From: Bugula neritina
Taxonomy: Eukaryota > Bryozoa > Gymnolaemata > Cheilostomatida > Bugulidae
NCBI GenBank assembly: GCA_964035545.1
Contig: OZ037771.1
Span: 744,001-808,000 of the forward strand
Length of the DNA stretch: 64,000 bases
Direction of reading: 5' to 3'
Shown: positions 8,405 through 63,500 of the stretch, in pieces
Position numbering within the stretch: the stretch's first letter is position 1
Layout: every line of letters starts with the position of its first letter
Position numbers and translations under genes: made by a program
The notes under the pieces: model-generated
Told to the model about the DNA's origin: nothing
The model's database searches: none
What the model saw: the letters and a program-made list of their open reading frames with translations, nothing else

Positions 8405-11400
8405 TCAGAGTTTACTCTTCTTTTGTATTTCAGGGGCTAATAACTTCGCAACCTGCATAGCACTTCCCCAGCTTCCACCAACTCCGTATCCGCCATGACC
8501 ATAATTGTGTATTATCTGTAACCATAGCAACAACAGTTGTATATTATCTGTAACCATAGCAACCACAGTTGTGTATAATATGTAACCATAGCAACAACAG
8601 ATGTGCATCACATGTAACCATAGCAACAACAGTTGTGTATTATTTGTAGTCTGTTGATTGTCAGTGAGCAGATTAAACTTACTGGAGTTTTCTTCCCATT
8701 AAGATACTTGAATTCTTTTTCTATTCTAATTCCACCCCTTCGGTGAGGTCTAATTCCCGTGTACTCCTGTAGGACTTTGGCTCTCTAGATTAACACAAGT
8801 GTAGACAGGAAGTGATGCAATGACGTCTAGACTAATTACTCTCCATAGAACTAGCACTGAGTGGGTACACGCTGGCATGTGTTGAGTTAACTCGAGAACC
8901 ATAGCAGTAATTACAATTCAGCTGAGTGAGTTTTGCTAACATCTTTTACACTTTGAAGTTAATAAATAAGTTAAATATTCTACTGCAGTTGAACAGCAAA
9001 TAGAGACATAAACATCAGCTAATCAAAAGTGACAGTAGAAATAACACTTAAGGTCTGTTCACCTTCATTCCTGGGTGGAGTTGTCTGGCCATAGCTTCAA
9101 GGTCTCTTGATAAATCTGCGTCAACACTTCTGTCTTCAACATCCTTGACGTAGGAGCCACCAACAACCACCTCATTACCACTACAGTTACACATTACCAC
9201 TACAGTTACACATTACCACTACAGTTACACATTACCACTACAGTTACACATTACCACTACAGTTACCACTACAGTTACATTTTACCATTACAGTTACAGC
9301 TTACCACTACAGTTACCACTACAGTTACAGCTTACCACTACAGTTACACATTACCACTACAGTTACCACTACAGTTACATTTTACCATTACAGTTACAGC
9401 TTACCACTACAGTTACCACTACAGTTACAGCTTACCACTACAGTTACACATTACCACTACAGTTACACATTACCACTACAGTTACACATTACCACTACAG
9501 TTACAGCTTACCACTACAGAGATACAGCTTGCAGACTTATTGATATAACAGAGACGGACAACAAATACAAACACTAAACACATAAGCACGAGATAGTAAC
9601 AGTAGGCTACTAGTTACTATATTTTCATACAAGTTTGCCGAGTTGCATAAGAAGACAACTCCTGTAAATCTACTTACTGCGGGAGGTAATAAAAGCTGGT
9701 GTGGGCATTTTCTGTTTTCTTGAAAAGATCAATAAAGTAATTGAAATTGGTGACTTTTCCATCCGTTTCCATTCTTAGAAGTTGTCCTTTCACAGGATAC
9801 ATATTAGCATCAGCAGCTAGCTGTCTACTCCCCAAACCAGTACAGTTTATAATCACATCATACTCCTGGGCCACCTAAACATACAATCATTTCAATTTAT
9901 TATAATATATTCATGTAAAATGAGTTGGAGTTATCCTTTCTAAAAGTACTTCAATTGACTTGTCTGAGACTAAACAATTCAGTGATTACTTCACGAGCTG
10001 TTGCTACTATCCCAAAAAATAATATGCTGAATAACGGTAAAATAAATATCTCGATACACTTTAGAAGTTCAGAGTTGTCTTATACACATTGGAAATTCAG
10101 ATTATCTTTCAAACAGTACAGTTAGTTGAAGATACCGTTTTACATTTTTTAGACATAATGAAAACTTTACACACATGCAGCAATTTGTTTGGATATGAAC
10201 AGATGCCCAGTAATCTTGTAATCATATTTCCTGTATGCATAGATGAACTGTAATGAAATTGTCGTATACTGCAAACCTGGGAGAAAGAGTGGACTTTACA
10301 TCTCCTAATATGTCCTCCATTCCTATGGAACTTGTTGAGTAGATACGGTAAATATCTTCTAGTGTCAACACATACACTCTTTACATGCCACCCGGAGCTA
10401 TAATATATTTACTATACAGTATGAGCTCCACTACTATACAGTATGACATGTATTACTATACAGTATGACATGCACTACTATACAACATGACATGTATTAC
10501 TATACAATATGACATGCACTACTATACAATATGACATGCACTACTATACAGTATGACATGCACTACTATACAGTATGAAATGCACTACTATACAATATGA
10601 CATGCACTACTATACAATATGACATGCACTACTATACAATATGACATGCACTACTATACAGTATGACATGCACTACTATACAGTATGACATGCACTACTA
10701 TACAATATGACATGCACTACTATACAGTATGACAAGCACTACTATACAGTATGACATGCACTACTATACAACATGACATGTATTACTATACAATATGACA
10801 TGCACTACTATACAATATGACATGCACTACTATACAATATGACATGCACTACTATACAGTATGACATGCACTACTATACAGTATGACATGCACTACTATA
10901 CAATATGACATGCACTACTATACAGTATGACAAGCACTACTATACAGTAGGACATGCACTACTATACAACATGACATGTATTACTATACAATATGACATG
11001 CACTACTATACAATATGACATGCACTACTATACAGTATGACAAGCACTACTATACAGTAGGACATGCACTACTATACAACATGACATGTATTACTATACA
11101 ATATGACATGCACTACTATACAATATGACATGCACTACTATACAGTATGACAAGCACTAATATACAGTACGACATGCACTACTACACAGTACGACATGCA
11201 CTACTATACAGTATGAGCTGCACTACTATACAATACGACATGCATTACTATACAGTATGACATGCACTAATATACAATAATTATGCACTACCACGTCTGG
11301 TAAGGCATAAGTCTCCTGCATTCCTCTGCAGACAATAGCACTGCCTTTCCAAACACTTTTGAAGATATCGGTTTTTCGACATCCTACAGCACACAGCAAA

Positions 11401-13733: not shown

Positions 13734-16307
13734 TTATTTCACTTTTTTAGAGCTGTTGGCTTTGCTTGCCGCCCTCTCTGCGTATATCATTTCTGTGAAC
13801 CTCCTAAAACACAGGTATATATACTAACACAGGTATATATACTAATACAGGTATATAATAACACAGGTATATACTAACACAGGTATATATACTAACACAG
13901 GTATATACTAACACAGGTGTATATACTAACACAGGTGTATACTAACACAGGTATATATACTAACACAGGTAATGTATATACTAACACAGGTGTATATACT
14001 AACACAGGTGTATATACTAACACAGGTGTATATACTAACACAGGTATATATACTAACACAGGTATATATACTAACACAGGTATATATACTAACACAGGTA
14101 TATAGTAATACAGGTATATATACTAACACAGGTATATATACTAACACAGATGTATATACTAATACAGGTATATATACTAACACAGGTATATACTAACACA
14201 GATGTATTTACTAATACAGGTAATGTATATACTAACACAGGTATATATACTAACACAGGTAATGTATATACTAACACAGGTATATACTAACACAGGTATA
14301 TACTAACACAGGTATATATACTAACACAGGTATATATACTAACACAGGTATATATACTAACACAGGTATACAATGTAGACAAGACAACAACACTAAGACG
14401 TACCCTTCTAGGCCTTCATTCACTACGTACACCAGGAGCAGGACACAGAATAGTAGAGCACCAACAATAGACCTATTCCTGTAACAATAATTACATGACC
14501 AATACACTAAGGCCATATATGGAGATCAGACTTTAAAGCTATATAGTAACAGTATTCATATAACTGTAGAAATGACATTTATTAACTAAAACTGATGTAG
14601 AATAGCTTTGCTCAGCTTTGTTATCTGCATTTCACTGTTGAGCTAGCAGACATGTGAAGAACACAGGCTAAGAAGTAGAAACACACCCTAGAATATAAGC
14701 GATGTAGTTTATTTTGGAGCCAGTGTACATCGGATGGTCACAAACATCAAATGGAAATCCTGTCAGCTTTTCTGAGAAGAGAATTCCAAAATGATCTCCT
14801 ACAAAGATAAGGCTGTATTAAACCTGTGAGTGAGAAGACATCAGTGTGAAAGAGAAAGGATTATCAAGTGAATACAAGTAATTAAATCACTACAATCCAA
14901 TGTGAAGTGACAGAGTAATACGAGACTAGTGAGAGTTGCCTCACCAATAGCAAAACTACATGTAAAGGTGGATGCATGCTAGCAACAAGTTGAAATGCCA
15001 TAGCGACTTTCATGCTGGGTTTAATTGGAAGTTGGCGGAGCCTTTCCAAACATTAAAAAATTATATGGAGTAAAATTAGTTGGTGGAGTGTAGTTATAGT
15101 AATAGTGTGTGGCATGGTAACAGTAGAGTATGATAGTGTGGCGTGGTAACAGTAGTGTATGATAGTGTGGCGTGGTAACAGTAGCATATGATAGTGTGGC
15201 GTGGTAACACCGACCGTGCCAGAGGCCGATCCACCCAAGCCGGTAGCTGCTACTCAACACAAGGGTAGTTCCTATCAGCCATAGCCCAGTTTCCAGGTAC
15301 TCCAAGTACTCATTGAAGGGGGTCTCTATCCGCGGGTGGGCTGTCACTATTTTAGTAAAACTAAAATATATGAAAATAAGCAGAACGCTAGCAACTAGTT
15401 CAGATATGCTGAGTATTGGCATGGAATATTCTGGAACATTTGCTGTCTGTTTCTAGCATGGAGATGAGAGGGTGTAGGCATCAGCTTGTAGTATCAAATA
15501 TGTACAGATAGGAAATTAATATATCATGAACATAGTATACATGAGTCATCAGGGAGAGTCAAGTCATCTGGGAGAGTTAAGTCATCTGGGAGAGTCATGT
15601 CATCTGGGAGAGTCAAGTCAGCAGGGAGAGTCAAGTCAGTAGGGAGTCAAGTCAGTAGAGAGTCAAGTCAGTAGAGAGTCAAGTCAGTAGAGAGTCAAGT
15701 CAGTAGAGAGTCAAGTCAGTAGAGAGTCAAGTCAGCAGAGAGTCAAGTCAGTAGGGAGAGAGACTTACCAGATGAACCTAAAGATGGTGATGAAGAGAAA
15801 CTGGGGGATACTCAGGGCTACACAAGCCAACTCGGGAGATCCAAACAACTTTGTCAGAAATCTTGTCCGGTGCTCCGTCCGCAAAATCTAAAGCAAACCA
15901 AAATAATTATAGCTTTTTTAGTAACACTAGAGTGCTACTGGAGTGATACTAGAGTGCTACTGGAGTGCTACTGGAGTGATACTAGAGTGCTACTGGAGTG
16001 CTACTGGAGTGGTAGTAGAGTGCTACTGGAGTGATACTGGAGTGATAGTAGAGTGCTACTGGAGTGATACTGGAGTGATACTAGAGTGATACCGGAGTCT
16101 AGTAGTGATACTGGAGTGATACTAGAGTGATAGTAGAGTGATACTGGAGTGATACTAGAGTAAAACTACACTTACAACATTGAAGAAGACTGGGGCCCAT
16201 ACTAAAACAAGGAAAATGTGTATGTTGGTGTCGTATATGTTCACATATGTGTACAATTCTTCAAATGATGTGGGATAACTCCAATTGCTAGCATTCACCT
16301 CTGCCAT
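13734..16307 (-). CDS. PEMT: Phosphatidylethanolamine N-methyltransferase, copy 1
   Basis: An ER membrane enzyme that converts phosphatidylethanolamine to phosphatidylcholine using S-adenosylmethionine. The six exons are 16307-16176, 15887-15769, 15360-15215, 14798-14687, 14478-14404 and 13803-13734, giving 217 aa in continuous phase (human PEMT is about 199 aa). Family landmarks are FFNV-ILRTEHRTRF after the first hydrophobic segment, LFGSPELAC, ETPFNEYLEYLETGLWL, GDHFGILFSEKLTGFPF, DHPMYTGS and RFTEMIY. The protein is hydrophobic with roughly four TM segments. The C-terminus is KKVK, a KKxx ER-retrieval signal. It is the most diverged of the three tandem copies. An alternative upstream in-frame ATG gives 13 more residues; the start used matches the copy-2 and copy-3 exon. 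The two-residue acidic motif before PFT in human PEMT reads EG here. Confidence 0.9.
13806..14370 (-). repeat. 16-18-bp minisatellite beginning at PEMT1 exon 6 acceptor
   Basis: Units of TATATACCTGTGTTAG on the minus strand, more than 30 copies. The true acceptor, TATATACCTGTGTTTTAG|GAGG, is a unit with two extra T, so every unit ends in a usable-looking TTAG. The array fills almost all of the last intron, up to 34 bp from the exon 5 donor. Confidence 0.85.
15095..15213 (-). repeat. Short minisatellite after PEMT1 exon 3 donor
   Basis: About three to four copies of a 30-bp unit containing GTTACCACGCCACACTATC (minus strand), starting about seven bases inside the intron from CACG|GTCGGT. Confidence 0.7.
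15545..15762 (-). repeat. Minisatellite after PEMT1 exon 2 donor
   Basis: Units of CTACTGACTTGACTCTCT and the related CCAGATGACTTGACTCTC on the minus strand. They start in the intron just after CTG|GTAAGTCTCTCTCC, and the donor-flanking CTCTCTCCCTACTGACTTGA belongs to the repeat. Confidence 0.75.
15920..16165 (-). repeat. Minisatellite after PEMT1 exon 1 donor
   Basis: Units of 11-12 bp alternate as GTATCACTCCA and GTAGCACTCTA on the minus strand, about 21 in total. The array begins about 12 bases after GTT|GTAAGTGTAG. Confidence 0.75.
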
Positions 16308-16484
16308 TTTATATACTGTATCTAAAGCAGAAAAAAGTGACTGCAAGCAAGTCTTCGAGTAAATATAGATACATCTTAATTGAAATATACAAATACAGTT
16401 AATTTCACAGCATTTGAGTACTCTCTAATGTGTTGTGTTTTACTGTTAGGTTTCAAGTGTTACACAATTTCCTTCAGGAGAGTA

Positions 16485-16808
16485 TAACTAATAGGTAGTA
16501 CAGCTAGGAGAGTATAACTAATAGGTAGTACAACTAGGAGAGTACAACTAATAGGTAGTACAACTAGGAGAGTATAGCTAATAGGTAGTACAACTAGGAG
16601 AGTATAACTAATAGGTAGTACAACTAGGAGAGTATAACTAATAGGTAGTACAACTAGGAGAGTATAACTAATAGGTAGTACAACTAGGAGAGTATAACTA
16701 ATAGGTAGTACAACTAGGAGAGTATAACTAATAGGTAGTACAACTAGGAGAGTATAACTAATAGGTAGTACAACTAGGAGAGTATAACTAATAGGTAGTA
16801 CAACTAGG
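16485..16808. repeat. 30-bp minisatellite, about 11 copies
   Basis: A nearly perfect array of the unit TAGGAGAGTATAACTAATAGGTAGTACAAC (first 20 bases TAGGAGAGTATAACTAATAG). It lies about 180 bp upstream of the PEMT1 start. A TTAG acceptor-like site at 16321-16330 suggests this may be intron between a noncoding first exon and the coding exon. Confidence 0.9.
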
Positions 16809-18483
16809 AAAAAAGGCCAAAAATATTGATTTTCGAAGCAGCTTTAGTTTATCTTATTAGAAATAAAGAACTGAAACAGGATTTGAGAATCTTTTAGACA
16901 AATTTCAGAGTGATGATTATTTTGAAATTTAAGCTAGGTTTTACATTAGGCATTCTAGTTTTTCAGACTTCAAAAGTAAATCAAAAATATAGCCACACAA
17001 GTTTATGCTTTTTTATGATTGAATGTTATTAAAACACATGATAGATACAAATAGTAGGTTGGTAACTTATAAATATATCTACAGAAGGCCACAAAACCTC
17101 CAATTAAAAAGTTAGCAAGTAATGGCTATAAAGTTCAAAGTTCACTCCCTTACACCGTGTGTTGGTTAAATGACCTGAAATGTACATGCTCACAACCACA
17201 TAGAATGCTGTTATCTTGATGTTACGCTTATCAGACAGTGGCTTGTTGTTGGGTGAAGCCAGCATTGCACATTTTGGGAGAATGATTTTTGATGTGGAAA
17301 ATAACAATTATTATCAGCTGCAAACCCCCTGATTAGTTCAAAGGTCAACGGCTCTAGGAAGAGAGTAGTTGTAGTGATAGTAGCTGGAGCTTTTCAGTCA
17401 CTATGTAAACAACGAGGGTGTGCATGTAAAATAAGCTACTTCATCAACAGTGAAGTGTGATAGTGAATTATATAGAAAGTGAAGTACCTATGTTACACTA
17501 CAGAATGTAGTGAATTACAAAACCTATATGTAATTTATTTTATATATTATTTCATTACTAAAGAGACACAAACTAGTAGAGCTTGAAACACCGGACTGCA
17601 GATGTGGTCAATAGTCCACAAAAGATGACCATTGTTTGTGTAACACAATGCAAACAACAATGTGTACCCTTGTACCGGTAAGAATACAATATTTAGTTGT
17701 TGCCCTGTAGGTCAACTGATACTCTATAGTCTATGCATGAGTAGGCAGTATGGGCTACACAGTATGGTGTACAAAACCTTTGGCCACATGTTTAGCTCTT
17801 AAAAAAAGAATTAATTAAAAACTGAATAACCAGTATGCATCTTTGAGATTGACCACAGATGTGCATGGTGTGAATTTGTCCCTAATGAAAAGAGAACAAC
17901 TCCTAGGAGACAGGCAATATTACTTGTTTATGCTGTCCAGCAGCAATAACTTGAAAATTACCATGATTTGACATAATTCAAAAACACAAATGTATGTTTT
18001 TTTAATTTTGAAGTCTATTGTGAAAAATAGCTGTCACTTTTGACAAATTTTATACTCAACAGAAGCTAAAACTAAAAAAGGTTTAAAATAACAAATAGTA
18101 GTTTTATTGTTTCAGCTTCTTGTATGAGTTTTAGATCTGATGCATAGGAAACAAACTTTTACCAACCATTAGAAACTATTGGAAGATTACATTATCTTAC
18201 TACTTATACACCTGTTCAACCAGAAAATCCACCAACACCAATTTTCTGGTTATCTACTTGATATTGTTTAAAAGGCACTAGGCAGTAATTTGAAAATGTG
18301 TGACTTAAAGGATTGCTCTATCTTGTCTAATAAATGGCCATTTAGGTCAAACACACATAATATTGTGTTTTTCTAAGCATGCATTGACAAAAAGCATTTG
18401 ACCAAAGGTAGAAAAAGTTAGTTGAAGTTGAGGGTGTAGATTGGTAACAGCCAAAACGCCGATTTTGAAATGAGCTGGGAACT

Positions 18484-21438: not shown

Positions 21439-21552
<114 letters not shown>

Positions 21553-22079
21553 ACTGCATTATATTAATATATTGTTATTTATATATTATGTTGTCCAACT
21601 GGATTATATTGCAAGACGATTCAACTATAACAATTTGTCTTTGCCTTGATATTAAAGCTAAAAGTATGAAGTTGAAGCTAAGCACTGTATTACCAAATAG
21701 TTACTGTGTACCACACTCTATCAAGTAGAGCTGACGCATCAGCTGAATGAACTGAACATTTAGCAGACAAGGAATTATAGTTGCAGTTGAAAATAGAATA
21801 AGCAATAAAGAGTAAGAAAGTTCTTGTAGCAAATATCACTTAAATTTATTAACAAACTAAACATTCATCGGTGTAAAGGACTAAAAAATTTTACAAAGCT
21901 GATTCAAGCCTTAAACTGAGATCAAAACTTACATTAAAATTACTGATATTAAATTAGATCATTGTGGAGGAATCATTAGCACGATTTAATACATGGCACA
22001 TGATAATCTAAAAGCCTTTTGAAAATGAAATAAAAACATGTCACAGCTGATGTGCTGAAAGCATATACTGCATACGGTG

Positions 22080-22250
22080 TGATGCATTGTAATACATAGC
22101 AACACAGTGTAATACGATGTCATATATTGTAATACATAGCAACACAGTGTAATACGATGTCATACAGTGTAATACATAGCAACACAGTGTAATACGATGT
22201 CATACAGTGTAATACATAGCAACACAGTGTAATACGATGTTATACAGTGT
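22080..22250. repeat. Tandem repeat of about 38 bp x 4 in PEMT2 3' region
   Basis: Units share CACAGTGTAATACGATGTCA and CAGTGTAATACATAGCAA. The array begins about 20 bp after the PEMT2 stop codon at 22272, so it is probably transcribed as 3' UTR. Confidence 0.8.
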
Positions 22251-32374: not shown

Positions 32375-32755
32375 CTATTGTATGAGACACTCTATAGTAT
32401 CAGATCCTTGCTTGGTTGCTACTGGTATAACTTGTAACGCTGCTTTACACATGTAGGGGATGGTACCATACGGCCCGCTGGGGGCCGAATCATAGAACGC
32501 CTCACATATTCCTACACAACATACAGACACACAGTGGTATATCTATTTTATGCATGTGCAGACAACTTCTATTATATATAGTAGCTTAAAATTGTGTAGC
32601 ACTTTAACAGAATGTCATATACTGTGACGTGTGAAGAGTGCATGTGTTGACCAACCTCTAAGTCTGTGGCAGCTATGCTTGCTTCTACTGTCACTTGTGG
32701 TAAGGTGGTTGCCTCCAGCTTCCATCGCCTACAGACGCGTGACGTAATATATATA

Positions 32756-32810
<55 letters not shown>

Positions 32811-32836
32811 TCACAGGTAATATATATACTCACAGG

Positions 32837-32889
<53 letters not shown>

Positions 32890-35800
32890 TATATATACAG
32901 GTAATATACATACTCACAGGTAATATATATACACAGATACATACGTGGTCCTGTAGAAAAAGTAGATAAGCCTTGTGAACTATATCATCAACAGAGATAG
33001 TTGAGGGGATGAAGCGCCCGCCCCGACTCATCTGTGAGAAGATGTTGAGAGCGCAGAGAGCCTCGACCACCAGCTGCCGGTACTCCGGCTCTGTTATGTT
33101 GTTTAATACTGACTCTATTCGTAGGGCAAACTTGAGTTCTCCTTCCGTCATCTGAATATTGTACATAGAGTATATAGTATAGAGATAGAGTAGTAGATAG
33201 TATAGAGATAGAGTAGTATATAGTATAGAGATAGAGTAGTATATAGTATAGAGATAGAGTAGTATATAGTATAGTATAGAGTAGTATATAGTATAGAATA
33301 GTATATAGTATAGAGATAGAGTAGTATATAGTATAAAGATATAGTAGTATATAGTATAGAGATAGAGTAGTATATAGTATAGAGATAGAGTAGTATATAG
33401 TATAGAGATAGAGTAGTATATATTATAGAGATAGAGTAGTATATAGTATAGAGATAGAGTAGTATATAGTATAGAGATAGAGTAGTATATAGTATAGAGA
33501 TAGAGTAGTATATATTATAGAGATAGAGTAGTATATAGTATAGAGATAGAGTAGTATATAGTATAGAGATAGAGTAGTATATAGTATAGAGATAGAGTAG
33601 TATATATTATAGAGATAGAGTAGTATACAGTATATAGTATAGAATAGTCTCACCTCTTTAACCAGACTGTGAGAGAGAATGTTGCCATCTACAGAAAGCC
33701 CTCCACACTACAAACATACATCCACACTACAGTCTGCATGTTGATGTCATGGATTACGTCATGTCAGGTTATTTTATAGTACAAACCTGTTTCAGGACAT
33801 GCCAGATCTTAGAGTAGAAACCTAGAGGGACCCTGTTCAGAGCCCCGTCAATTCTCCTATGTCTGCTCCACTGCCCAAGGCTATCTTCACACACATCCTC
33901 TACATCAGCAGTGCTCAGTAGATCTTTACACATGTTTGAGTTAGAGATCAATGCTGGACGAAAGATCTAAATGTAACATGTACATAGCCTGGTGTTATAT
34001 ACTGTACACAATAGTATCTTATATATAATACATAGTGTTATATACTGTATATGATATAGTATACAGTATATAGTACCACATACAGTATATAGTACCACAT
34101 ACAGTATATAGTACCACATACAGTATATAGTACCACATACAGTATATAATACCACATACAGTATATAGTACCACATACAGTATATAGTACCACATACAGT
34201 ATATAGTACCACATACAGTATATAGTACCACATACAGTATATAGTACCACATACAGTACATAGTACCACATACAGTATATAATACCACATACAGTATATA
34301 GTACCACATACAGTATATAGTACCATATACAGTACATAGTACCACATACAGTACATAGTACCACATACAGTATATAGTACCACATACAGTATATAGTACC
34401 ACATACAGTATATAGTACCACATACAGTACATAGTACCACACACAGTAGAAAGCAGAGAGTAGAGAGTATTATGTAACGCAGTCATCAGTCACTCACCCT
34501 GTGTTTAGTACTGCTGCTACGACTCTTTACTCTCCCAGTATCTGAAACTCCCCCTTGAGGCTCTTCAACTGAAATTATAACTTTAGCACTCAGTATATAG
34601 TAAACTAACTAACCTTCTAGCACTACAAAGTCCTTAGCACTCAGTATATAGTAAACTAACCAACTTTCTAGCACTACAAAGTCTTTAGCACTTGGCATAT
34701 AGTAAACTAACCAACCTTCTAGCACTACAAAGTCCTTAGCACTCAGTATATGATAGAGGAAGTTCTTCAGTTCATACGGACTCAGATTGAGAAGGTGGGA
34801 AGTGGCTTCTTCCTCTACATAATAACACAACGCAGTGACAGCTGGCAGCGTACATACTCACATGCTATGCATCTCTGGTAACCATGGAAACATATTCATC
34901 ATAAGTCATCTAGGCACTAAACGGTTTTACTTTATTTAATATTACAACTTGAAAGAGCGTGTTGATAGGCTGGCAGCATAACAACAGTAAGTCAGTACAC
35001 AATGACATAGAGTGAGTTCTACTAGACTCTAGAGACACGAGGGGGGAGCAACACTCACCAGAGCAGTTGAGACAGTGGGACAACTCCTTCGTCATCACGG
35101 CTATCACCAGACCAATCCGAACTCTCAGCATTTCGTGGAACAGACGGGGCTCCGTCCGAACATACATAGACATGTACAGTAACAGTTCCTGTAGTATATA
35201 GACATGTACAGTAACAGTTCCTGTAGTATATAGACATGTATAGTAACAGTTCCTGTAGTATATAGACATATATAGTAACAGTTCCTGTAGTATATAGACA
35301 TATATAGTAACAGCTCCTGTAGTACATAGACATGTACAGTAACAGTTCCTGTAGTACATATACATGTATAGTAACAGTTCCTGTAGTATATAGACATGTA
35401 CAGTAACAGTTCCTGTAGTATATAGACATATATAGTAACAGCTCCTGTAGTACATAGACATGTACAGTAACAGTTCCTGTAGTACATATACATGTATAGT
35501 AACAGTTCCTGTAGTATATAGACATATATAGTAACAGCTCCTGTAGTATATATACATGTATAGTAACAGACTCACCTGGTGAAGCATGCAGTGAGGTGAA
35601 TTGGGCAGATAGCCACTGATATTCTGATCCGTTGATTCGCTGCCAATATTACAGACTTGTTCTATCTTCTCCACGATCTCATCGTGAGAAATAGGCTGAG
35701 TAACTACACATTCTTTATGTGCAGGTAAACCAAATGTTACCTGCTTTTGGCGCACTAATAAATCTGACAACGCCTGCAACATAGAACAACACGAGGAACA

Positions 35801-36634: not shown

Positions 36635-39600
36635 CTAATAGTAGTAGTACTAGTAGTATTACTAGTACTAGTATTACTAGCAGTAGTATTACTAGCACTA
36701 GTAGTAGTAGTAGTACTAGTATTACTAGTAGTAGTAGTATCATTAGTAAACACTCACTGAGTGATAAACAAGTAGTGAATGATGTCAGCCTGTTCTGTAG
36801 CTTCATCAGTATTTAGCAGAAGATCCACCAACTCCATGGAGTTTTGTTTAGAAAAAGCGGAAGACTGTCCCGGTAGGTTGACAGGGAATTGGGAACTTGA
36901 GCTAACCTTGAGCATTCCTTCAATATCATGAACTATCTTATCACAGTCGGTGTGAGCAATGACCAGCTACTGCAACTAGTAACTAATGACTCACTACTGC
37001 AACTAGTAACTAATAACTCACCACTGCAACTAGTAACTAATGACTCGCTACCGCAACTAGTAACTAATGACTGTAACTTAATAAAGCCCTCAGAAGTTTG
37101 ATAACTAGACATGATTAAGCCAAAGCTGGTTGTACCAAGTAACTAGATCAAGTTGTATGTACCTGTAACTGAGCGCGACACATTCAGGGAGTTATCTGCC
37201 CGGGGATGGGACACGGAGGCTGAAATATTAATACAAAAACATTTGTGTTGGTTGAACATGGGAATAAACCAGCTGTTAACAAACAAAACATGCATTCTTA
37301 GTCTAAGTTTCATAATTATAGCAAACCTCAAAACAATAGAGAAAAAATTGATCAAATTATAAAGCTGTTGACTGAAATATGCATATCAGTGATGAAAACT
37401 GCTGAAATAAGAACATGTGACAAATGGAACATGACAAATGGAACATGACAAATGGAACATGACACAGAGAACGAGTATAGAGTATCTATTCTGTATGAGA
37501 AAGTTGACAAGAAGATAACTAACAAGTGAAGTCTACATCCGGCTCAGTGAGGAGAACGGAGAGACCTCGTCTGATTATTCCATGGACAGAGGGCGCTGTG
37601 TCACGCAGTTCTGACTTTCTGTTGGAAAACTCGCTGGCACCACTAGAAAGACGACTCCTGAGTGAAGGGTGTTGAGGTGAGGTAAAGAGCTGGCAGGCTT
37701 TAGAGTCTAAATAACACAAGAGTGAAATGCTTACATGATTACCATACAGATAGAGAGGTATTTAACTGATTACATGACTATCATACAGATGGAGAGGTAT
37801 TTAACTGAAAGACTAAACATTTACCAGTCTTAAAGTGAAGCCATTCTAGAGACTCGACACACGAAGTGGACAGGAAATTGTCCATGTTGCCAAGTTGCAC
37901 TCTCACACCGCCATAATATCCCGACTGCATCTTGGTGATGGCTCCCCTGAACTCAAAGGGGACCTCACCTGAGAAATCTGTGAGAGAGGAGACAGGAGAA
38001 CGTAATAGTAAAATATGTGGTACGAGTAAAATACTACGCCGTGATAAAGCCTTCACGTTAGTTGATAAGTTTCTATAGAAACGCATGCAATGTTAGCACC
38101 AGATTTTCCTTCAATGATTACAACAACAAACTTAGATTTCATCAAAAACTCAATATAGAGAAATTGTGGAACTTGCATATTAAACTGACTCTCAAAACTT
38201 GAAATTGAAAAAAAAATTTCAACAGAAGAGCAGAAGATGGAAACTGAACACCGAGTTCCATACCAGACATCCAGGTGTAGATAGGGAGGATCATGGTGGG
38301 TCTTCCCAACAGCTGCCAATTAGCCTTAAGATATTGCAAGTCAGTGAGGATATTATCAAATATGAAGTCTTGATCCATGGCGAGGTAGAAGGACTGTTGG
38401 TTATACAGCTGTAATACAGGATATACACAGCTGTAATACAAGATATACACAGCTGTAATACAAGATATACACAGCTGTAATACAGGATATACACAGCTGT
38501 AATACAGGATACACACAGCTGTAATACAAGATATACACAGCTGTAATACAGGATATACACAGCTGTAATACAAGATATACACAGCTGTAATACAAGATAT
38601 ACACAGCTGTAATACAAGATATACACAGCTGTAATACAAGATATACACAGCTGTAATACAAGATATACACAGCTGTAATACAAGATATACACAGCTGTAA
38701 TACAGGATACACACAGCTGTAATACAAGATATACACAGCTGTAATACAAGATATACACAGCTGTATCAAGCTATGTATACAGCGGTAATACACTGGATAC
38801 ACAGCTGCAATACATGAAAAATACCAGAATATACTATACAGTTGTAAGTGATGCAGAGACTCTAGTAAACTCATTGTATGCTGAAATATTATACATACCT
38901 CTGGGATGAAGCAGTGAATGCCCTCTCTATATCTGTACAGAGTGCTCGTGGCCAGTAAACCCACACCTCCAAGTCTACCTGTCAATCTAAACCGAGAATT
39001 CTTACCTACAATGAGCACACAACTTCAACATGATATAATAGCAGTAGGGGAGGATGCAGCTTATAGAATAGATGAAAAGACCAGAATGTGGCAGGACATG
39101 TTCAGAAAGTGACAAATACTTAACATTGCAGCAAACTCAAGTGTCGCATGACTCATCATAACAATCTCCAGAGCTTTCATCAAATCAACAGCTTTTTTAT
39201 TGTAAGAATAATGAATAGTCCATAACAAAAATAGAGATTCATTTCATACCCAAATGGTGAAAGGTTTCTGCAAGAACTTTAGCAGGATGTAGCTTGTAGC
39301 GGCCACCATCTTGAAAGCTCTCAATTGTGTGGCATTTTATATTACATTTCTCCAGACAAGCTCTAATGGCCTCAGTTTCAGCCAGGATGACCACTGAAGC
39401 AAGTACAATGTGACTGAAATACTAGACCAATTGCAGATAAATAAACAGAGGCAGCAGTGATATACATGTTTTAGTATAACATAGCTAACAACTAACAATA
39501 AACATTCATTCAATTAAAAGGTTAAATAAACAGCTTCAAACCAACTACTTCTCATACTTTAGAGTGAAAACGAAGATAATGTAGAAACATTGAGATACAT

Positions 39601-42600
39601 CGACCGTCGTAGCTGCGTGTGCTCTAGGAAGTCGCTACTATCTGAATATCTTACATGTAGTAAATTATATACGCAATACAGGAGAATACATGTTTTGATA
39701 ACAAAAAATTCACTCACACTGCACCACCAAATCAGGTTTGGGGAGAACATTGAGTCTTCTGTTCAGAGGGTCAAGTTCACTGGGAGAGATGAACCCCTCG
39801 GAGAGAAGGCAGCTAATGACGTAGAGTGACTGAGACCACTTGTGAGGTATTTGACCTACAGCCACTCTCTGCTGACTCCCTGCCTCTTTCCTTTCTTCCT
39901 GTACCTGTCCGACATGTAGAAGGTTCTAAAGATGGAGGGAGAGTTACAGAGACAGGTAAACAGGTAAAGAGGAAGGAGTGTTACCTGATCAGCGGGCACA
40001 GCATACATCTCTGGTAGAACCCGCAACCCTCCAGACATCTTCACTTGCAGCTTGTTCAGTTTCGTCATGTAATCACTGGCCTGAAATGTGTAGCTACAGG
40101 TAAATGTGTAGCTGCAGGTAAATGTACAGCTACAGGTAAATATGTAGCTACAGGTAAATGTGTAGCTACAGGTAAATGTGCAGCTACAGGTAAATGTACA
40201 GCTACAGGTACAGTAAATGTGCAGCTCTGTGGGTTTTGTTGTATGACTAAGAAAGGCATGAGTACAGACTAAAATGTGTCACCATATGTTGAGTGTTGAC
40301 ACATGTGTCAACATATGTATCAACACTCAACATGCAGACTAAAATGTGTCAACATATGTGTCAACATATGTGTGCAGAGAAACAAAGTTCACTTCCCATG
40401 CTGTTGAGTCACGTCGCTGGTAGTTACTTCTGTAACTTGTTTATACCGGAAGACATTCTACGACATTAGTGCTAGGGTAGAAAAAGATATCAGACTGAAC
40501 TTTCCTGACTCTCAAGTGCTAAGGTAAACCAGAACAGATGAATAATGCAAGCTGTTCATACAGTGTGACTTTCTTGTTACCAGTGTATTTAAAGGTAACT
40601 CACAGCGTCCTTGTTCCCGCTAAACGTCTCATTGATGGAGAGATATGCGAGGAAGAGCGGCCACTCACACTCCACATTCTCAAATCTCTGCAACTCCCAG
40701 GGTTCATAGTGCAGCCTGTTAGGGTCTTCCAACGCTGTCTTATACCCGTCTCTCAGGAACCGGCAGCACCCATACCGCCCCTACACATGGCAGCAGAGGG
40801 GTGAGCTCATTAAATACTAACTACAGCATCTTTTGGTAATGATAGTCTGTGCTAAAATATTTGAAACAACAGACTACTACAACTTACCAGACACTTGTTC
40901 AGGATGGCTTCTCTTGTCAGGTTTACCAGATTCTGATCATCAACAGCGAAAGCAGGAAACCCGATGATGGAGAGTAATCCACTATCAACTTCCTGTATAT
41001 ATTACACAATAGAGGTGATATATTACACAGCAGAGGAGATATATTACACAGTAGAGGTGATATATTACACAGTAAAGGAGATATATTACACAGTAGAGGA
41101 GATATATTACACAGTAGAGGTGATATATTACACAGCAGAGGTGATATAGAGGTGATATATTACACAGTAGAGGTGATATATTACACAGTAGAGGTGATAT
41201 ATTACACAGTAGAGGTGATATATTACACAATAGAGGTGATATATTACACAATAGAGGTGATATATTACACAGTAGAGGTGATATATTACACAGTAGAGGT
41301 GATATATTACACAGTAGAGGTAATATGTTACACAGTAGAGGTGATATGTTACACAGTAGAGGTGATATGTTACACAGTAGAGGTGATATGTTACACAGTA
41401 GAGGTGATATGTTACACAGTAGAGGTGATATGTTACACAGTAGAGGTGATATGTTACACAGTAGAGGTGATATGTTACACAGTAGAGGTGATATGTTACA
41501 CAGTAGAGGTGATATGTTACACAGTAGAGGTGATATATTACTCACTTTAGAGTTGGACTCGCGTGGAAGGAGAGACTGCAATATGGCGCTGCACTGAGCC
41601 ACCTTGTCAGCCTGCACTTGTATAGTAGAAAGACAACTCCCATTGGATCCAAACATGTCCAAACCCGCTATGGCTTCCATTGCTGCCTACAGGTAAAATA
41701 TGCTGACATTACAAGCAAACACAGTGCAGTAGAGTGTTACACCTGCCAACATCTACATAGTGATATATGCGAGCTGTAAAGTAGGGAAGGAGTTGCGTTA
41801 CCTTTGCCATTCCAATAGAACTAGAATTGAGTTCTGGTAAACCGTGGTTGGTTTTGTCTCCTCTCTCCCAAATACCATAATCCTACAAAGTATAATAACA
41901 GCCATGTGTGACATATAATAGTCATCCTGTATTCATACTTTTAACAAACCTCAACAGCACAACACACAGCACTAGAAACACTAAACAGATATCTTTGATT
42001 CATGTCAATGAAAACCAACTAAACTATTCTAAATAGAAGGCAACTCTTAATGATTTAAAATAGATGTATTAATTTACTTGATAAATAGTGCGCGAATTTA
42101 CCAAATAAATATTTTAATCAATTTTCAATTACTAGACAGTATCAAAGAATAGATAGTATTTAACAATATAATATATCTAAAAATAGACCATAACTAATAA
42201 TAGGCCACATTTAATCATAGACTATTATATCTAATAATAGACTATTATATTTAATAATAGACTATTACATCTAATAATAGATAATGTGCTTACAGGTATG
42301 CGGTAGGCTGACTCAATGTAGTAGACGAGGTTCTGAATGAAGTCTACTTCATCTAGTGTATAGACGATCTGCAGACCTGCAAGTAGTTTAAATGAAGAGA
42401 TCAATTAATATTTATAGCACTAGCACTAGCACACTCACAGATGATATAACTCTACCAACATACCACTGGCTGTCATCTGAGCTAACATCAGCAAGTAGAA
42501 GCTTGTGGCATCTATTTGCAGGTGCCCCCAGGCCGAGTCTGACACCACCGTGCTATGGTCTTTACTTGAGTATTTAGCATGCAGTGAATGTTTGGGTACT

Positions 42601-45394: not shown

Positions 45395-48300
45395 TTATCC
45401 ACGTGTAATTCTATATTTAGTATTGGGGAACTTTTTATCCAGCATATCGTGAACTTTAGAGACGGCTTCTTTATATTTACGTCTGATAACAACTTCTTGT
45501 TCCAGAGCGTAGTTCTACAAGGGAGATTATTCTGTGTATGAGAGGTAATGTGTATTTATAATGACTCACTAATCATCTTCCTTATATCTACCTTGCAAGT
45601 TACACTAACCTTGTAATTGCAAAATTTACAAGGTTAGTGATAGGTATGTTTAGGCCTTACAATTTGAACGAGTTGGAACTTGTTTGAGAATAGCCTATTT
45701 CTAGAACATTTCATATTTGAAAAGATATTATTTGTTCAGCAATTACAGTATGATTTGTAAACCATGTTATCTCCAAAAAAATATGAAGTCAGAAACTGAG
45801 CATTGACTAACCAATCATTTACCAATGAGCTGTGATGCTGCAGAAAGCAGACAACCACTGTCCTTCTATATCTACAGTAAAGAGCAGACAACTACTGTCT
45901 TTCTATATCTACAGTAAAGCGCAGACAACTACTGTCCTTCTATATCTACAGTAAAGAGCAGACAACTACTGTCCTTCTATATCTACAGTAAAGAGCAGAC
46001 AACCCCTGTCCTTCTATATCTACAGTAAAGAGCAGACAATTACTGTCCTTCTATATCTACAGTAAAGAGCAGACAACCACTGTCCTTCTATATCTACAGT
46101 AAAGAGCAGACAACTACTGTCCTTCTATATCTACAGTAAAGAGCAGACAACTACTGTCCTTCTATATCTACAGTAAAGAGCAGACAACTACTGTCCTTCT
46201 ATATCTACAGTAAAGAGCAGACAACTACTGTCCTTCTATATCTACAGTAAAGAGCAGACAACTACTGTCCTTCTATATCTACAGTAAAGAGCAGACAACC
46301 ACTGTCCTTCTATATCTACAGTAAAGAGCAGACAACTACTGTCCTTCTATATCTACAGTAAAGAGCAGACAACTACTGTCCTTCTATATCTACAGTAAAG
46401 AGCAGACAACTACTGTCCTTCTATATCTACAGTAAAGAGCAGACAACCACTGTCCTTCTATATCTACAGTAAAGAGCAGACAACTACTGTCCTTCTATAT
46501 CTACAGTAAAGAGCAGACAACTACTGTCCTTCTATATCTACAGTAAAGAGCAGACAACTACTGTCCTTCTATATCTACAGTAAAGAGCAAACAACTACTT
46601 ACTCGGTATTTATCAATAGGACCAGGTTGTCGCTTTAGACTTTTGTTTTCTGGATTCTTAACTACACAGCAGTGTCTTCTGTAGAATAGTATAACATAAT
46701 ATAATACAACATAGATAGTAATATAGTACATTCTGTAGAATAGTATAACATAATGTAATACAACATAGATAGTAATATAGTACATTTTGTAGAATAGTAT
46801 AACATGATATAATAAAACATAGATAGTAATATTGTACATTATGTAGAATAGTATAACATAATATAATACAACATAGATAGTAATATAGTACATCATGTAG
46901 AATAGTATAACATAATATAATACAACATAGATAGTAATATAGTACATTATGTAGAATAGTATAACATAATATAATACAACATAGATAGTAATATAGTACA
47001 TCATGTAGAATAGTATAACATAATATAATACAACATAGATAGTAATATAGTACATTATGTAGAATAGTATAACATAATATAATACAACATAGATAGTAAT
47101 ATAGTACATTATGTAGAATAGTATAACATAATATAATACAACATAGATAGTAATATAGTACATCATGTAGAATAGTATAACATAATATAATACAACATAG
47201 ATAGTAATATAGTACATTATGTAGAATAGTATAACATAATATAATACAACATAGATAGTAATATAGTACATTCTGTATAATAGTGTAACATAATATAATA
47301 CAACATAGATAGTAATATAGTACATTATGTAGAATAGTATAACATAATATAATGTATAGAATATAACATACAGAAGAGTCAAATTTTATGTTCATACTAG
47401 CTATCATGAAAATTCCTATTGTGATATCTGTCAAAATGCCAGGCCATTTGTACAGCAGGTAGAATTCATACTGGTGAGTGGTGGATATAGATGTAGCAAC
47501 ACAGCTAGCTGCTAGTTCCATTTTATTACACCACTTACATGTAACTTTTACAATGTAGTAATATTTTACCTAAAGTTGGCTCCATCAAACTTATAATCAA
47601 GAAACGCCTGCATTTGTTCCATCTCTTCCATGGGATTTTCTCTCACTCTGTTGTATACCAGAACATGTAGAGGTCTCGTATACTCTGTAAGCCAATACTT
47701 GGCATGTTTCAACCATCTTGGTATATAGTTGCGCAATCTCTTTTTCCAAACTGTGAAAAGATGGATGCATAACATATTTATTAGTACTATTTATTCATAG
47801 CAAGTGAAGCTGCTTATCAATGGAGCTTTGATAGTTGTATGCCACCTCACCACATGCACCATCCACCTCACCACATCCACCATCCACCTCACCACATACA
47901 GTTCACCACATCCACCTGACCACATGCACCATCCACCTCACCACATGCACCATCCACCTCACCACATACACCATCCACCTCACCACATGCACCATCCACC
48001 TCACCACATCCACCTCACCACATGCACCATCCACCTCACCACATGCACCATCCACCTCACCACATGCACCATCCACCTCACCACATCCACCTCACCACAT
48101 GCACCATCCACCTCACCACATCCACCATCCACCTCACCACATCCACCTCACCACATGCACCATCCACCTCACCACATCCACCTCACCACATGCACCATCC
48201 ACCTCACCACATGCACCATCCACCTCACCACATCCACCTCACCACATGCACCATCCACCTCACCACATACACCATCCACCTCACCACATCCACCTCACCA

Positions 48301-53168: not shown

Positions 53169-56100
53169 ATGTTGAAAACGTGTATTCGGGCTGCGCTGTG
53201 CAACTCTTTTAAAGACCAAGGACTTACAAAATCAATGAAACTGAAAGGTATTGCTATTACTATTACTATTAGTATTACATTTACAGTATTACTATTAGTT
53301 ATTACTATTACTAATACTAATAATAATAGTTATAGTGTAAGCATAACTTTAGTTGTAATATAGTTTTAAGTATTACTATTAGTATTAGTATTACTACTAG
53401 TACTACGTCTACTATTATTTGATTTTATCATAATAATATTAATTAGCATAAGTTGAAGTACTGTGACTGGAACTGGTACTAGTAGTAGTAACTAACTAGT
53501 GGAAGTATCTGCATTGAAGTAGTACCACTAGTTTTGCAACTAATACTGTTACTTATTAGTTATTACTATTAGTACTACATTTAGCGTTACTATAAGTATA
53601 ACATCAAGTTCAACATGTAGTGCTTACAGTTAGTAATACTAATAGGATGGCTGTGTAATTTTGAAAAATAAACATAATCAAATTAACATAAGATGGTATA
53701 ACTATAAGTATAGTATAAGTAAAAGTATTGCTTTTACCCTGATCGCTTTAACTTAGAGTTTGTGTTAGTCTTAATGTTGAAGTTAATGATGATGATAAAC
53801 ATAATCATAATGAGTCATGACTACCATCGTCATGGTGTAGATGTCTCAAATGTAATTATGTCGTTTTACTTTTTAGTTTACTTATACGTCTTATAGACTA
53901 GAGACTAAAGCAAATGAAAATATTGTAAACTTAATATAAAATTAAATGAATAACTAGCAATTTAGCATGCTCGGAGTCATGGTTTCAGTTTTGACTTTAG
54001 ATTTTGTCATTACCAATATGGTTCTTGAATTATTCACAGTGTTAACCATTCATAATGGTAATTGCTATATCTACTGAATTTGGAAATAAATATAATATTT
54101 AAATTAAAATTTAAACTAAAAATAGTATATCTTAATTTTATGGCTGATATTAAATAGCAAAACTAGTAGTTACAGCTTGGTGGAACCGGAGTGAGTCTAA
54201 TGGCAATAGTTTTGAAGTAAATGGTAAAAGCAATTTGAAACTTAAACTCAAAGTTAAAGTAGTTCTACATTAAACTGTCACTCACTCATTCACTTTTCAA
54301 TTTTACAAAGAATGAAGTTTAAGTTATAGTTAAAAATGTTGTAGTATATTCAGTAATCCAAAGAGTTGAACTTGAAGTGATTTTCGTAATATAAATATTT
54401 ATATTCTATATTTATGCATATGGAATAATCGAAACCAACATTATGAACTTTAAGCATTATTTTTTTTCAGTTCGACTGTTAAGGATTGACAGAAAATTGA
54501 AAATGTCAAGAATGTTAAAAATGTTTTAAACTACGCAATACTGTAGTAAAAGCTTTATAGTAATTTTTCATTACAGGTCTACCATTGTCACAACTAATTT
54601 TGAAATTTCCTTTTCAAGATAATCTTACCAAAACGCAACCAAATGGCAACGAGTAAGTTTTTAACTATATAGCTCTTTGGCTTGAATTCACACATCATTT
54701 CAATAGGCTTCAGCAGAAACTTTAGACACATACGTTTATATAATTTGTAAAACTCATGCCACCCAACTTACACTTTTACATTGTTGCACTATCTTAACTT
54801 TGTGCTAACACATTACCCCTGGTGTATGTAATAGTTATCTGTGTCATTGTTATCCGACTGTATCTTGAGAAACTGCATAAGCTGGCTACTGTTTTGTTTT
54901 AGTTTCCACCAGCAGAGAGATTTTCATATGTCTGCAAACAGTCCCATTAAATTTCAGCCACCTTCAAATTGGCTAAAATATAATGAACTTGTATTTCCTC
55001 CCAGAGAAGAGGACGAGCCATGCAGACCTGCAGTAAGTAGACTGCATATTTATCAAGTCAAAGCATACCAAACATTATATTAGGAAGTACACTCTACACT
55101 GCAACATATTAATAATATCTGCAAGGGTACATTGTTTACATTAGTGATGTAATAAACACATTGCCAATCGTATAGTGAATGTAATAACTGCAGTATTTGT
55201 ATAATTCAGATGCTTTTATCTATTTTCAGAATTTAACTTCTGCTAATTCTACTGTGAAGACTGCCGTTATCTATTAATGATTGCAATTATTTGATTTGTA
55301 GGAAATCTTTCACCAGAGAGCCCATGTGAAGTATCAGTTTGACAAAATGAATTACCTCTGCAGGATGGTAGGTATATGTACTTCTACCTGTCAAAGCCTG
55401 TCTACATGGCTTCTGTGAACAAGTTGCTATGTTCACTTCTACCTGCCAGAGCCTGTCTACATGGCTTCTGTGAGCAAGTTGTTGTCTTCACTTCTACCTG
55501 TCAAAGCCTGTCTACATGACTTCTGTGAGCAAGTTGTTGTGTTCACTTCTACCTGTCAAAGCCTGTCTACATGACTTCTGTGAGCAAGTTGTTGTGTTCA
55601 CTTCAAGTAGCAATTCACACTCTTCAATGTCTTACAGCTTATATAATCATCCACTCGTGTTGTTGATAGGTAAGAGGCATGAGTGTTGATGAAGCAAGGA
55701 AACAGCTTACCTTCAGAAACAGAGCTGGCGCCACCATTCTCAAAGAGGTCAGTTTTTACTTCGCGTGTTATTGCAAGGTCACACAGTGCTGCTAGGCTAA
55801 TTTTATACTTCTCAGCTCTTTTCCTCTCCGCTCTGTCCTGTTCGGGTAGCGAGCTCTTCTCATCTCTTATAATATGAGGAAAGGAGGAGGGGAGCCATTA
55901 AACTTTGATACAGTCAAAATGAATCTCCATAACTTACTACTCTGATATATGCCCACTCTGTAAGTTCCTGTACTTCCTCTAGAAATTGTCTCACCTTAAA
56001 TTATGTTGTAGCTTATTGAGGAAGCCCAAGACATGGCAGTTAAAGAGCATAACGTGGAGTTTAAATCTAACTTGTGGGTTGGTGAGTGTTACGACTAGCT

Positions 56101-60500: not shown

Positions 60501-63500
60501 ATATAATTTTTAAATGTTGACCAAAATGAGAAAACATACTGAAAATGCTTCTATAGTACACTTTAAACCCGCATTTGATAAAACAGTGATATAAGACCTT
60601 AAAAATAAGTATTCCAATCTTTTCATAGTTAAGATTTAATGTTGAGTATATGAGGGCATGTTCGTGTGTTGGTGCGTGATGCATGTGTGTTCAACGTGTG
60701 TTTGCTAGCGGTACATGCATGGTGTGTGTGTGTGCAGTGTGCAGTGTGTGTATATACTTCTACCTTACCTGAGTTGAGTGATCAGATGTGGTCGAGAAAT
60801 CTCCAAGGGCTTCCTAGCAGTTATCCCGTCAACTATTAAACTCAAATCAGACCATGAGCCCACTGAAGTCGTGTCCTGTTGAGATGTAGCACATTACCAC
60901 TTTGCGTTGATGCAAAATATCCTTTGGTGCAGCAAAACTATCTATTCAGTTTTAACATAAACTTATACTTATACTCAGTGTTATTATACACTTATACCTA
61001 TAGCTTACCCAGTGTTAATATAAACTTATACCTATAGCTTACCCAGTGTTAATATAAACTTATACTTATACTCAGTATTAACATAAACTTATACCTATAG
61101 CTTACCCAGTGTCAATATAAACCTATACCTAAGTGTTAATATAAACCTATACCCAAGTGTTAATATACCTCCAAGATGTTAGCCAATGACTCGTCATCTG
61201 TGCTGGTTGTGCCAACTTCGGCGTCCGTGTCACTCAAATCATCAACGGAATTATTTGAGGAAGTGGTAGTTTCTGATTCATCAGACGACAGGAAAGAAAA
61301 GGAAGCGTCAGACACGGCATCGCCTTCATCTAACGAGTCCAATCGCGCAAAATCTAATGTGGTGATACTTGGTGTCGCAACTCCTAAATATCTAATACAC
61401 TATAATGTTCATATATGATGATCACAGGGTGGGTACTACATATGGCTATATGGCTGGTGTGTAGAACAGATGTAGTGATAAATAATATAATTCATATAAC
61501 TGAATGCAAGACTTTAAATATTTAGCAACACCAAAAAACTGTAGCAAGCTGTTGATGACCAGCCTTGAACACTGGATAGTCATTTGTAAATGTTTATAAT
61601 TACAGTAATTAAAATTAAACATTTTATAATCACCTTTACTATTGTGTAACACTTTATTTAGTAAACAACTGTAAGTGCTACCCTTGCCATGTGATTGTTT
61701 CAAGTGCATACAGTACAATAATATTGTTTATGATTGTAATCTTATAATACTGGTTTACATTATACTGTGTCACATCTGTTCACCTATACCTACAAAGGAC
61801 CTCTAGCTATAGATCAGTAGGGTATACTCTAGAGTCTAGTAGCAAGCATTGTACTCATGTAGTTTATACTGAATATTGGGTAACTGTGAGGTTACAGGGA
61901 AACAGACACCTACACAATATTATTTATATTAGTAGAATGATTAGGCACCAGCAAAACTAAATTTAAGAGTTGACTTTTTGTAAACACATCAATTACATTT
62001 AAACGATTTTTGTGTATAAGACTGTACAGTTCATTGCAGACAAGAATTGTCCACCCATGTATCTTCAAGGTTATAGTACTGTAGATCAGTGGTGGGGACA
62101 TTGAGCTATAACTAATAAGTTTTAGTTTATTGGGTGGAAAGGTGGGTGTGGTCAAGTGTACAATTTACCTCCTAAATCTGGTAGAGATGACGAAGTCCTT
62201 CTGTAACGAGGCCGTTTTGGTTTGTTATGTTGCAATGCTGTGGGACAGGGTGCACTTTTAGTCTGTCTGACATCAAACAAAGAAGTGCGCATTGGCGTCC
62301 CAACTTGCTCCACCTCTGCATCTGAGTCACTCAACTCTTAGAGTGAAATAGACAGTTGATTACTCTACATTTTTATAGTAAATAACATTAGAATGATTAG
62401 CCTTATCACTTATATATACTCACGAGGATTGGGAGTTTTGTTACTTTTATCATCAAATATCAGTTCGTCTAGAATATCTATAATAAAAATGTGTGGTTTA
62501 AACTGGGGCACAATTTTATCAATATAAACATAAATTGCACTGTTAGCATCAATCCTTCTGCAATCTGCATCATGAGCTTAGGTCTCAGAGCTGTATATAT
62601 ACAATGTAGAACACTGTTAGTAAATTGAGCAAATTTCCTTTATTGGTGTTGGTGTAAAATTAGCTAATAATTGACTTCGAGTGAAACAGAGCAACTATTA
62701 TCAGGGATAGTGTTTAGGTCAACTAACAGCAGCTAGTAAAATAAAACACTCACTTTCAGTTACAACATCACAATCACAGAGAGAATTCAGAGAAAAAGTC
62801 TATGCATCACCTCAAGCCATGCTAGGAACATGACCTAAGATATTTCTGTTATTACAAAACTACCTCGCCATGTGGTTTGATCCTCAGCTAACAGCCTCTT
62901 TACTCACCGGACAGTGAAGAGAGACATGGTGAAGAAAGAGACTTACCTAACTAACAGCTAAGCAATGAATCAGCCAATCACATAGTAGAAACCTACCATC
63001 ATCATCAAATATGGTATAAGTAAGACAGGGAAGTAAACTCTCATCTCTCACAGATAGTGAACTTTCCACATCAGATCTCTCTGTAGATTCTGATAACGAG
63101 TCCTTGGCTATCTGAAACACATTTGATTGGTCAAATGATATGCTTAATTAATCTATATTGAACTGTTCCCCTTTCAAGAGACCAACTAAAAGTTTGCTGA
63201 ATTGGCACTAGTCAAAAATCAAAAGTTTTAATGAAAATGAATGATAAATTTATAAATTGTCTTGTTATAGAACAGAGCAAAGCTAATTGGTATCACATCA
63301 CAGGAAGTGCATATATTATGACCTGTGTAATATAGAGGTCACACTGATTTCTATTCTAAATCATAAACATTAATGACAAATATAAAATTATATATTTTGT
63401 ATGTATGAGCTATGAAGTAGCAATAACATGTAAACTTAATTTAGTTTGGATATGATTATATCACCTTGCTCATTGCATAGATTTAGCTGATGGTAATGCA

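Follow-up and report, generated by a model that had tools for sequence, protein, structure and literature searches.

The window analysed here, 64,000 nucleotides of chromosome 7 (C7) of the bryozoan Bugula neritina (positions 744001-808000; genome 215.8 Mb), lies 0.74 Mb from the chromosome end and contains eight modelled genes, in whose introns tandem arrays frequently begin at or close to an exon boundary and in the clearest cases repeat the splice junction itself. From the anatomy of these arrays we consider it probable that they are junction-seeded minisatellites, of the kind named mirages in amphioxus, which have expanded introns that already existed.

Gene models were built from PDB alignments together with reading of the sequence of a single haplotype, and comprise 60 introns. 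The genes are the D-aspartate/D-amino-acid oxidase paralogs OX1 and OX2, both complete and with all seven intron positions in common, PEMT1, PEMT2, PHKA, a sulfotransferase and MRPL22, both modelled in part, and an unknown gene with two exons only. PDB or Pfam matches back the names PHKA, oxidase, PEMT, sulfotransferase and L22, with Pfam upholding the last three; the sulfotransferase region gave no match against PDB and its family was found with Pfam. Exons 1-25 of PHKA give an open protein that is nearest to that of another bryozoan, Watersipora subatra (61%; the next full-length match reaches 48%), and exons 26-27, which are out of frame in the model, were omitted from it. The donor of PHKA exon 16, upstream of the intron 16 array, was picked by frame and shifted for that reason by 4 bases after the edge test described below, which leaves the distance between array and acceptor unaffected. 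Introns are numbered as in these models: sulfotransferase introns 5 and 6 and MRPL22 intron 4 of an earlier first-pass annotation are 3, 4 and 2, respectively, in the partial models.

Arrays were defined by a Tandem Repeats Finder (TRF) score of at least 60, with 114 rows merging into 42 arrays in the window; 29 of the 60 introns are overlapped by them, with 31 overlaps in total. The first-pass annotation had proposed that they begin at, or within a few bases of, exon boundaries, and this was confirmed when array edges were compared with uniform placement within each intron. Intron and array lengths were kept fixed per intron, which guards against arrays merely filling short introns. Edges fall within 12 bp of a junction in 22 of 31 cases against 13.05 expected (P=1e-5) and within 5 bp in 14 against 8.0 (P=0.0024); six arrays touch or cross the junction (distance 0) where 1.5 are expected (P=0.002), and the array-to-junction distances as a whole give a Kolmogorov-Smirnov P of 0.003. 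The six crossing arrays overrun the exon by 8 (OX2 intron 5), 11 (OX2 intron 7), 4 (PHKA intron 12), 9 (PHKA intron 16), 23 (PHKA intron 19) and 36 bases (PHKA intron 21). The individual arrays, in window positions, are:

8505..8648, minus strand: OX2 intron 7, 32-bp unit in 4.5 copies, CTATGGTTACAG followed across the boundary by ATAATACACAA, i.e. acceptor plus 11 exon bases (IIHN)
9173..9519, minus strand: OX2 intron 5, 19-bp unit in 17.7 copies, CTGTAG followed across the boundary by TGGTAATG, i.e. acceptor plus 8 exon bases; also shows a 100-bp higher-order unit
10410..11276, minus strand: OX2 intron 3, 22-bp unit in 39.4 copies, 867 of 894 intron bases; the unit contains TAGTAGTGCAT, resembling the donor GTAGTGCAT
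13808..14370, minus strand: PEMT1 intron 5, 18-bp unit in 31.7 copies, 4 bp from the exon; repeats the intron end, with no exon bases
32753..32932, minus strand: PHKA intron 25, 12 bp from the donor; units with donor-like CCTGTGAGTAT
33169..33648, minus strand: PHKA intron 24, 23-bp unit in 21.1 copies, 5 bp from the donor end, 480 of 502 bases
34583..34751, minus strand: PHKA intron 21, 51-bp unit in 3.3 copies, last 36 exon bases plus donor GTTGGTTAG
35166..35569, minus strand: PHKA intron 19, 32-bp unit in 12.6 copies, acceptor (TATATACTACAG) plus the first 23 exon bases (ELLLYMSM...); occupies 381 of 387 intron bases, starting at donor +6
36958..37072, minus strand: PHKA intron 16, 27-bp unit in 4.3 copies, acceptor TAG plus at most 9 exon bases by TRF, with a weak exon-side match
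38405..38814, minus strand: PHKA intron 12, 22-bp unit in 18.6 copies, TATTACAG followed across the boundary by CTGT, i.e. acceptor plus first exon bases
40084..40226, minus strand: PHKA intron 8, 18-bp unit in 7.1 copies, stopping 3 bp short of the exon
40997..41541, minus strand: PHKA intron 6, 21-bp unit, stopping 4 bp short of each end and covering 545 of 553 intron bases
45846..46599, minus strand: sulfotransferase intron 4, 37-bp unit in 20.4 copies, 754 of 765 bases, leaving 3 bp at the donor end and 8 bp at the acceptor end
46680..47353, minus strand: sulfotransferase intron 3, 54-bp unit in 12.5 copies, TTCTACAG followed by AA at the acceptor, stopping 1 bp short of the exon, with a weak exon share
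55380..55604, plus strand: MRPL22 intron 2, 55-bp unit in 4.1 copies, 12 bp from the donor, unit without donor
60937..61167, minus strand: unknown gene intron 1, starting 1 bp into the intron, GTATATTAACACTT repeated with variation

Clean arrays also occur outside coding introns, at 16476-16809 upstream of the PEMT1 start and at 22072-22251 directly after the PEMT2 stop codon. PEMT1, PEMT2 and a third PEMT-like copy, the last seen by eye only, have differing arrays close to the donor of the corresponding first intron (24214-24273, 15926-16161 and 28411-28522).

A test independent of TRF edges asked for the junction word, a 16-mer of 6 exon and 10 intron bases, in its own intron with up to three mismatches. 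Acceptor words recur in this way in six of 60 introns (OX2 introns 5 and 7, PHKA introns 12, 16 and 19, sulfotransferase intron 3), where re-pairing of words and introns predicts 0.33 and reached six in none of 5000 trials; a donor word recurs in PHKA intron 21. The repeated copies include near-exact exon bases in five of these seven introns (OX2 introns 5 and 7 and PHKA introns 12 and 19 at acceptors, PHKA intron 21 at the donor); in PHKA intron 16 and sulfotransferase intron 3 the three mismatches are all among the six exon bases, and the exon share is weak. The earlier proposal that the unit is the junction itself is thus clear in the former five and weak in the latter two; it did not hold for PEMT1 intron 5, nor did a donor-side unit in MRPL22. 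Among 103 TRF units, GTRAGT is contained in 8 against 1 for the reversed motif, and CAGGT in 7 against 1. No junction word of the seven is matched equally well in any of the 59 other modelled introns, a comparison of junction words rather than of whole units, which agrees with the earlier view that the units are unrelated between introns and that a local process tandemly duplicating splice junctions, and not one mobile repeat, is at work.

The direction of copying can be read from the exons. The exon part of the units in PHKA introns 12, 19 and 21 and OX2 introns 5 and 7 codes for residues that align without gaps with relatives. In PHKA intron 19 the repeated bases code for ELLLYMSM, the Watersipora counterpart being ELLIYLSM, and the junction aligns between HK and ELLIYLSMF; those of OX2 intron 7 code for IIHN, a stretch that OX1 and a further Bugula oxidase, EB796_015333, share without change. 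In an alignment with five PHKA relatives, nothing is inserted or missing compared with Watersipora at the exon joins of PHKA introns 6, 8, 12, 19, 21 and 24. Since the repeated exon residues align without a gap in relatives, the exon is the source that was copied into the intron, and not the reverse. The oxidase paralogs further bear on age: OX1 intron 5 has 147 bp and no array against 497 bp in OX2, OX1 intron 3 has 302 bp and no array against 894 bp, and the junction word of intron 7 has three copies in OX2 and one in OX1. As the two genes share seven intron positions while OX1 lacks the arrays of introns 3, 5 and 7, the simplest reading is that the introns predate the arrays.

We then considered what the copies would do if spliced. 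AG sites with up to five mismatches to the junction word (n=50) were scored with a matrix trained on the same introns, and 41 of the 50 match or exceed the authentic site in score. For 40 of the 50, splicing at the copy would shift the frame or introduce a stop; both copies in sulfotransferase intron 3 and both donor copies in PHKA intron 21 would stay in frame and open. The suggestion that any copy can be spliced harmlessly accordingly fails for most acceptors, the mRNA being unchanged only via the exon-proximal copy because 40 of the 50 would disrupt the frame or add a stop. The accompanying claim that copies decay with distance from the exon holds significantly in PHKA intron 12 and sulfotransferase intron 3 and perfectly in OX2 intron 7 (n=4), and is not significant in OX2 intron 5 and PHKA introns 16 and 19.

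Beyond the window, the donor word CAGGTAAGT was followed through the whole genome, with tandem occurrence defined as recurrence 10-40 bases after itself. It is tandem in 459 of 2675 occurrences, against 3 of 840 when the word is reversed; 9-mers of comparable GC content that passed a complexity filter are tandem in 957 of 117,496 cases (0.8%) in the genome sample described below and in 2786 of 30,966 (9%) in the window. Clustering among the matches listed yields at least 25 distinct CAGGTAAGT arrays on C1 (35.64 Mb) and C2 (33.58 Mb). Fourteen array edges were fetched (nine on C1, five on C2), of which 11 were readable by eye, and at nine of these an open exon has the first copy as its donor (L038, L039, L040, L041, L043, L044, L045, L049 and L050). 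Comparing exon positions -15 to -4 at these nine loci with the following copy gives 67 identities in 108 comparisons, where re-pairing of the loci gives 36.7 +/- 6.1; three loci have at least 10 of the 12 further exon bases matching (L038 10, L039 11, L043 11), and the other six have 2 to 8. Pfam found no family in six of eight array-edge exon peptides (L043, L049 and L050 were not submitted), the matches being phosphofructokinase at L045 and GLOD4 at L048, so most array-edge exons rest on an open frame plus splice signals. At L040 a single exon has an array before its acceptor and a donor-spanning array after it, followed by another array.

The CAGGTAAGT arrays are clustered towards chromosome ends: among the matches listed, the outer fifth of C1 and C2 holds 17 of 25 (binomial P=3e-7). 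Donor words outside arrays are spread evenly over C1 0-8.4 Mb (n=87; 20, 22, 19 and 17 per 2 Mb). The end clustering suggests that repeat-length mutation, more active near ends, may be the engine of array growth.

As a sample of the rest of the genome we drew 25 stretches of 10 kb placed at round coordinates (250 kb), 22 outside the outer tenth of the chromosome ends and three inside, and predicted exons with a home-made finder trained on the 60 window introns, neighbouring settings of which recover 95 of 120 window sites exactly. The 250-kb sample contains 68 arrays and the 64-kb window 42; the window is array-rich, and its rate is therefore not that of the genome. At a looser finder setting (-11), which gives 29 arrays, six edges lie within 12 bp against 3.0 expected (P=0.03) and three within 5 bp against 1.5 (P=0.16). 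The loosest setting (-10) was discarded for calling false introns inside an array at L027, and the first setting tried overpredicted. In one predicted gene of the sample (L026, minus strand, intron 3), which we take to be PDZ/SH3/guanylate-kinase-like, an array takes up 346 of the 365 bases and stops 12 and 7 bp short of the two junctions.

A number of observations weigh against junction seeding as a general process. In the window, donor words recur in their own intron only once in 60 (PHKA intron 21) against 0.17 expected (P=0.16, not significant), and longer donor motifs (0 vs 0 twice) and acceptor motifs (0 vs 0, 1 vs 3) are not enriched in the 103 TRF units; OX1 intron 6 carries an array of its own that is absent from OX2 intron 6. 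In the sample, 18 of 98 predicted introns hold an array, compared with 29 of 60 in the window, and edges of the 21 intronic arrays show no significant excess within 5 bp (1 vs 1.3 expected) or 12 bp (4 vs 2.6), and a uniform effect along the chromosomes is thus not demonstrated. L018, where exon end plus donor is repeated ten times, is the sole multi-copy donor-spanning array in the 98 introns. The controls for CAGGTAAGT consist of one reversed word and local 9-mers; at two of 11 readable edges (L047, L048) the gene is on the opposite strand and the array lies upstream of an acceptor, three of 14 edges (L037, L042, L046) were unreadable, and the phosphofructokinase exon of L045 is the only one of nine donor-start exons with homology support. 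The end bias may be why the mostly interior sample shows little. Checking array edges against random positions, as the first-pass annotation had proposed, upheld its claim in the window and not in the sample, and its interpretation overall is partly supported.

Under junction seeding, a tandem duplication of about 20-60 bp spanning or abutting an exon-intron junction would supply the seed. Ordinary repeat-length mutation, through slippage or unequal exchange, could then raise it to 3-40 copies, most actively towards chromosome ends. The product would be near-neutral, the mRNA remaining intact while the exon-proximal copy, i.e. the first donor or the last acceptor, is used.

The alternative that survives best, though we think it unlikely as the full account, is plain tolerance: arrays arise at random, introns are short, arrays inside exons are purged, and the survivors lie near junctions without any preference for them. 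The median length is 208 bp for introns lacking an array (n=31) and 22 bp for units, and random seeding with these intron lengths predicts 6.6 crossings, close to the 6 seen; the 250-kb sample, too, has no significant edge excess. The same model predicts 11.6 edges within 12 bp where 22 are seen. With residual intron lengths it gives 10.1 crossings (P=0.04, fewer being seen) and 17.0 edges within 12 bp (P=0.015). Plain tolerance also predicts no donor-word excess in arrays, contrary to the genome-wide count of CAGGTAAGT. As random seeding predicts the crossings and not the near edges, tolerance accounts for some of the pattern and leaves over a certain preference for the vicinity of junctions.

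It appears improbable that the arrays instead created the introns, by repeated duplication of an AG/GT exon segment (Rogers-type) rather than by expansion of old introns. Some introns are indeed nearly all array (PHKA intron 6, sulfotransferase intron 4), the donor-array units read GT...AG between copies, and in fission yeast genes an intron lies across 24-bp tandem exon copies, as cited in PMC4974935. Such an origin supposes that the intron was absent before the duplication; OX1 and OX2, however, share all seven positions with the arrays of introns 3, 5 and 7 in OX2 only, and by eye the arrays of PEMT1 introns 2, 3 and 5 are lacking at seemingly the same positions of PEMT2. Selection for redundancy, with repeated sites kept for splicing efficiency or regulated exon-edge choice, would fit the full strength of 41 of 50 acceptor copies and the excess of edges near junctions beyond random seeding, but is very improbable given that 40 of 50 copies would disrupt the frame if used, that copies diverge with distance in some arrays and that end clustering points to mutation.

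Returning to junction-seeded growth, each array amounts to a natural experiment in how splice sites are chosen, with as many as 18 near-identical donors or acceptors following one another, and what beyond site strength selects a splice site becomes directly addressable with RNA reads. A bolder and rather doubtful extension is that the spliceosome picks among these sites by position alone, taking the first donor or the last acceptor, and that the donor arrays, whose copy borders read CAG/GTAAGT, are zero-length-exon (ratchet) ladders. If so, splicing to any copy would rebuild a donor, permitting unlimited intron growth with stepwise removal, and junctions near chromosome ends would be nurseries of intron length.

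The assembly holds further material beside the chromosomes. Small contigs (C11-C289) contain most of 130 kinase matches (by eye), with in-frame TAA/TAG, seemingly from a ciliate-like organism with reassigned stops. COX1 reads, by eye, as invertebrate mitochondrial code; a near-identical, nuclear-mitochondrial-insertion-like copy lies on chromosome 6 (C6:11174072-11175412), and further COX1 genes are on small contigs C17, C65 and C196, the C17 copy without TGA codons.

Several known systems resemble these arrays in part. The minisatellites of vertebrate subtelomeres are, as in Bugula, tandem arrays enriched towards chromosome ends; to our knowledge they are not tied to splice junctions, unlike the Bugula arrays, and human examples have been studied in yeast. 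Introner elements similarly affect many introns within one genome; they place the same sequence in many introns, whereas the array junction words of Bugula, seven of which were compared with the other 59 introns as words and not as whole units, are not shared between introns. Tandem duplication supplying both AG and GT has been linked to intron gain (Hellsten 2011, as cited in PMC4974935), and in the potato RdRp gene the duplication crosses the intron-exon boundary as it does in Bugula; here, however, existing introns grow through many copies, and a new intron is not shown. Boundary-spanning repeats in Bryozoa did not come up among the titles and abstract openings listed in searches on bryozoans and on other taxa with such repeats, nor in passages of PMC13326412. 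The closest counterparts are the amphioxus mirages, tandem repeats spanning exon-intron boundaries for which intron gain has been proposed and reverse-transcription PCR suggests regular splicing, reported as undisturbed (PMC3087553, PMC3902484). In Adh3, the globins BflGb6 and BflGb9, TnC and PGBD5 of amphioxus (PMC3902484) the unit spans the boundary, as it does clearly in five of the 60 window introns, weakly in two, and at three of the nine donor-start loci; both the 5' and the 3' boundary can be duplicated, as seen in Bugula at the window acceptors and at the donors of PHKA intron 21, L018, L038, L039 and L043. On these two grounds the Bugula arrays probably belong to the mirages, here in another phylum, Bryozoa, where a single donor word accounts for at least 25 arrays on two chromosomes, concentrated near the chromosome ends. 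The Bugula data suggest that minisatellites of this junction-seeded type, described so far in a few genes of amphioxus, are present at many loci of a distant phylum, and they may thus be a recurrent route of intron growth.

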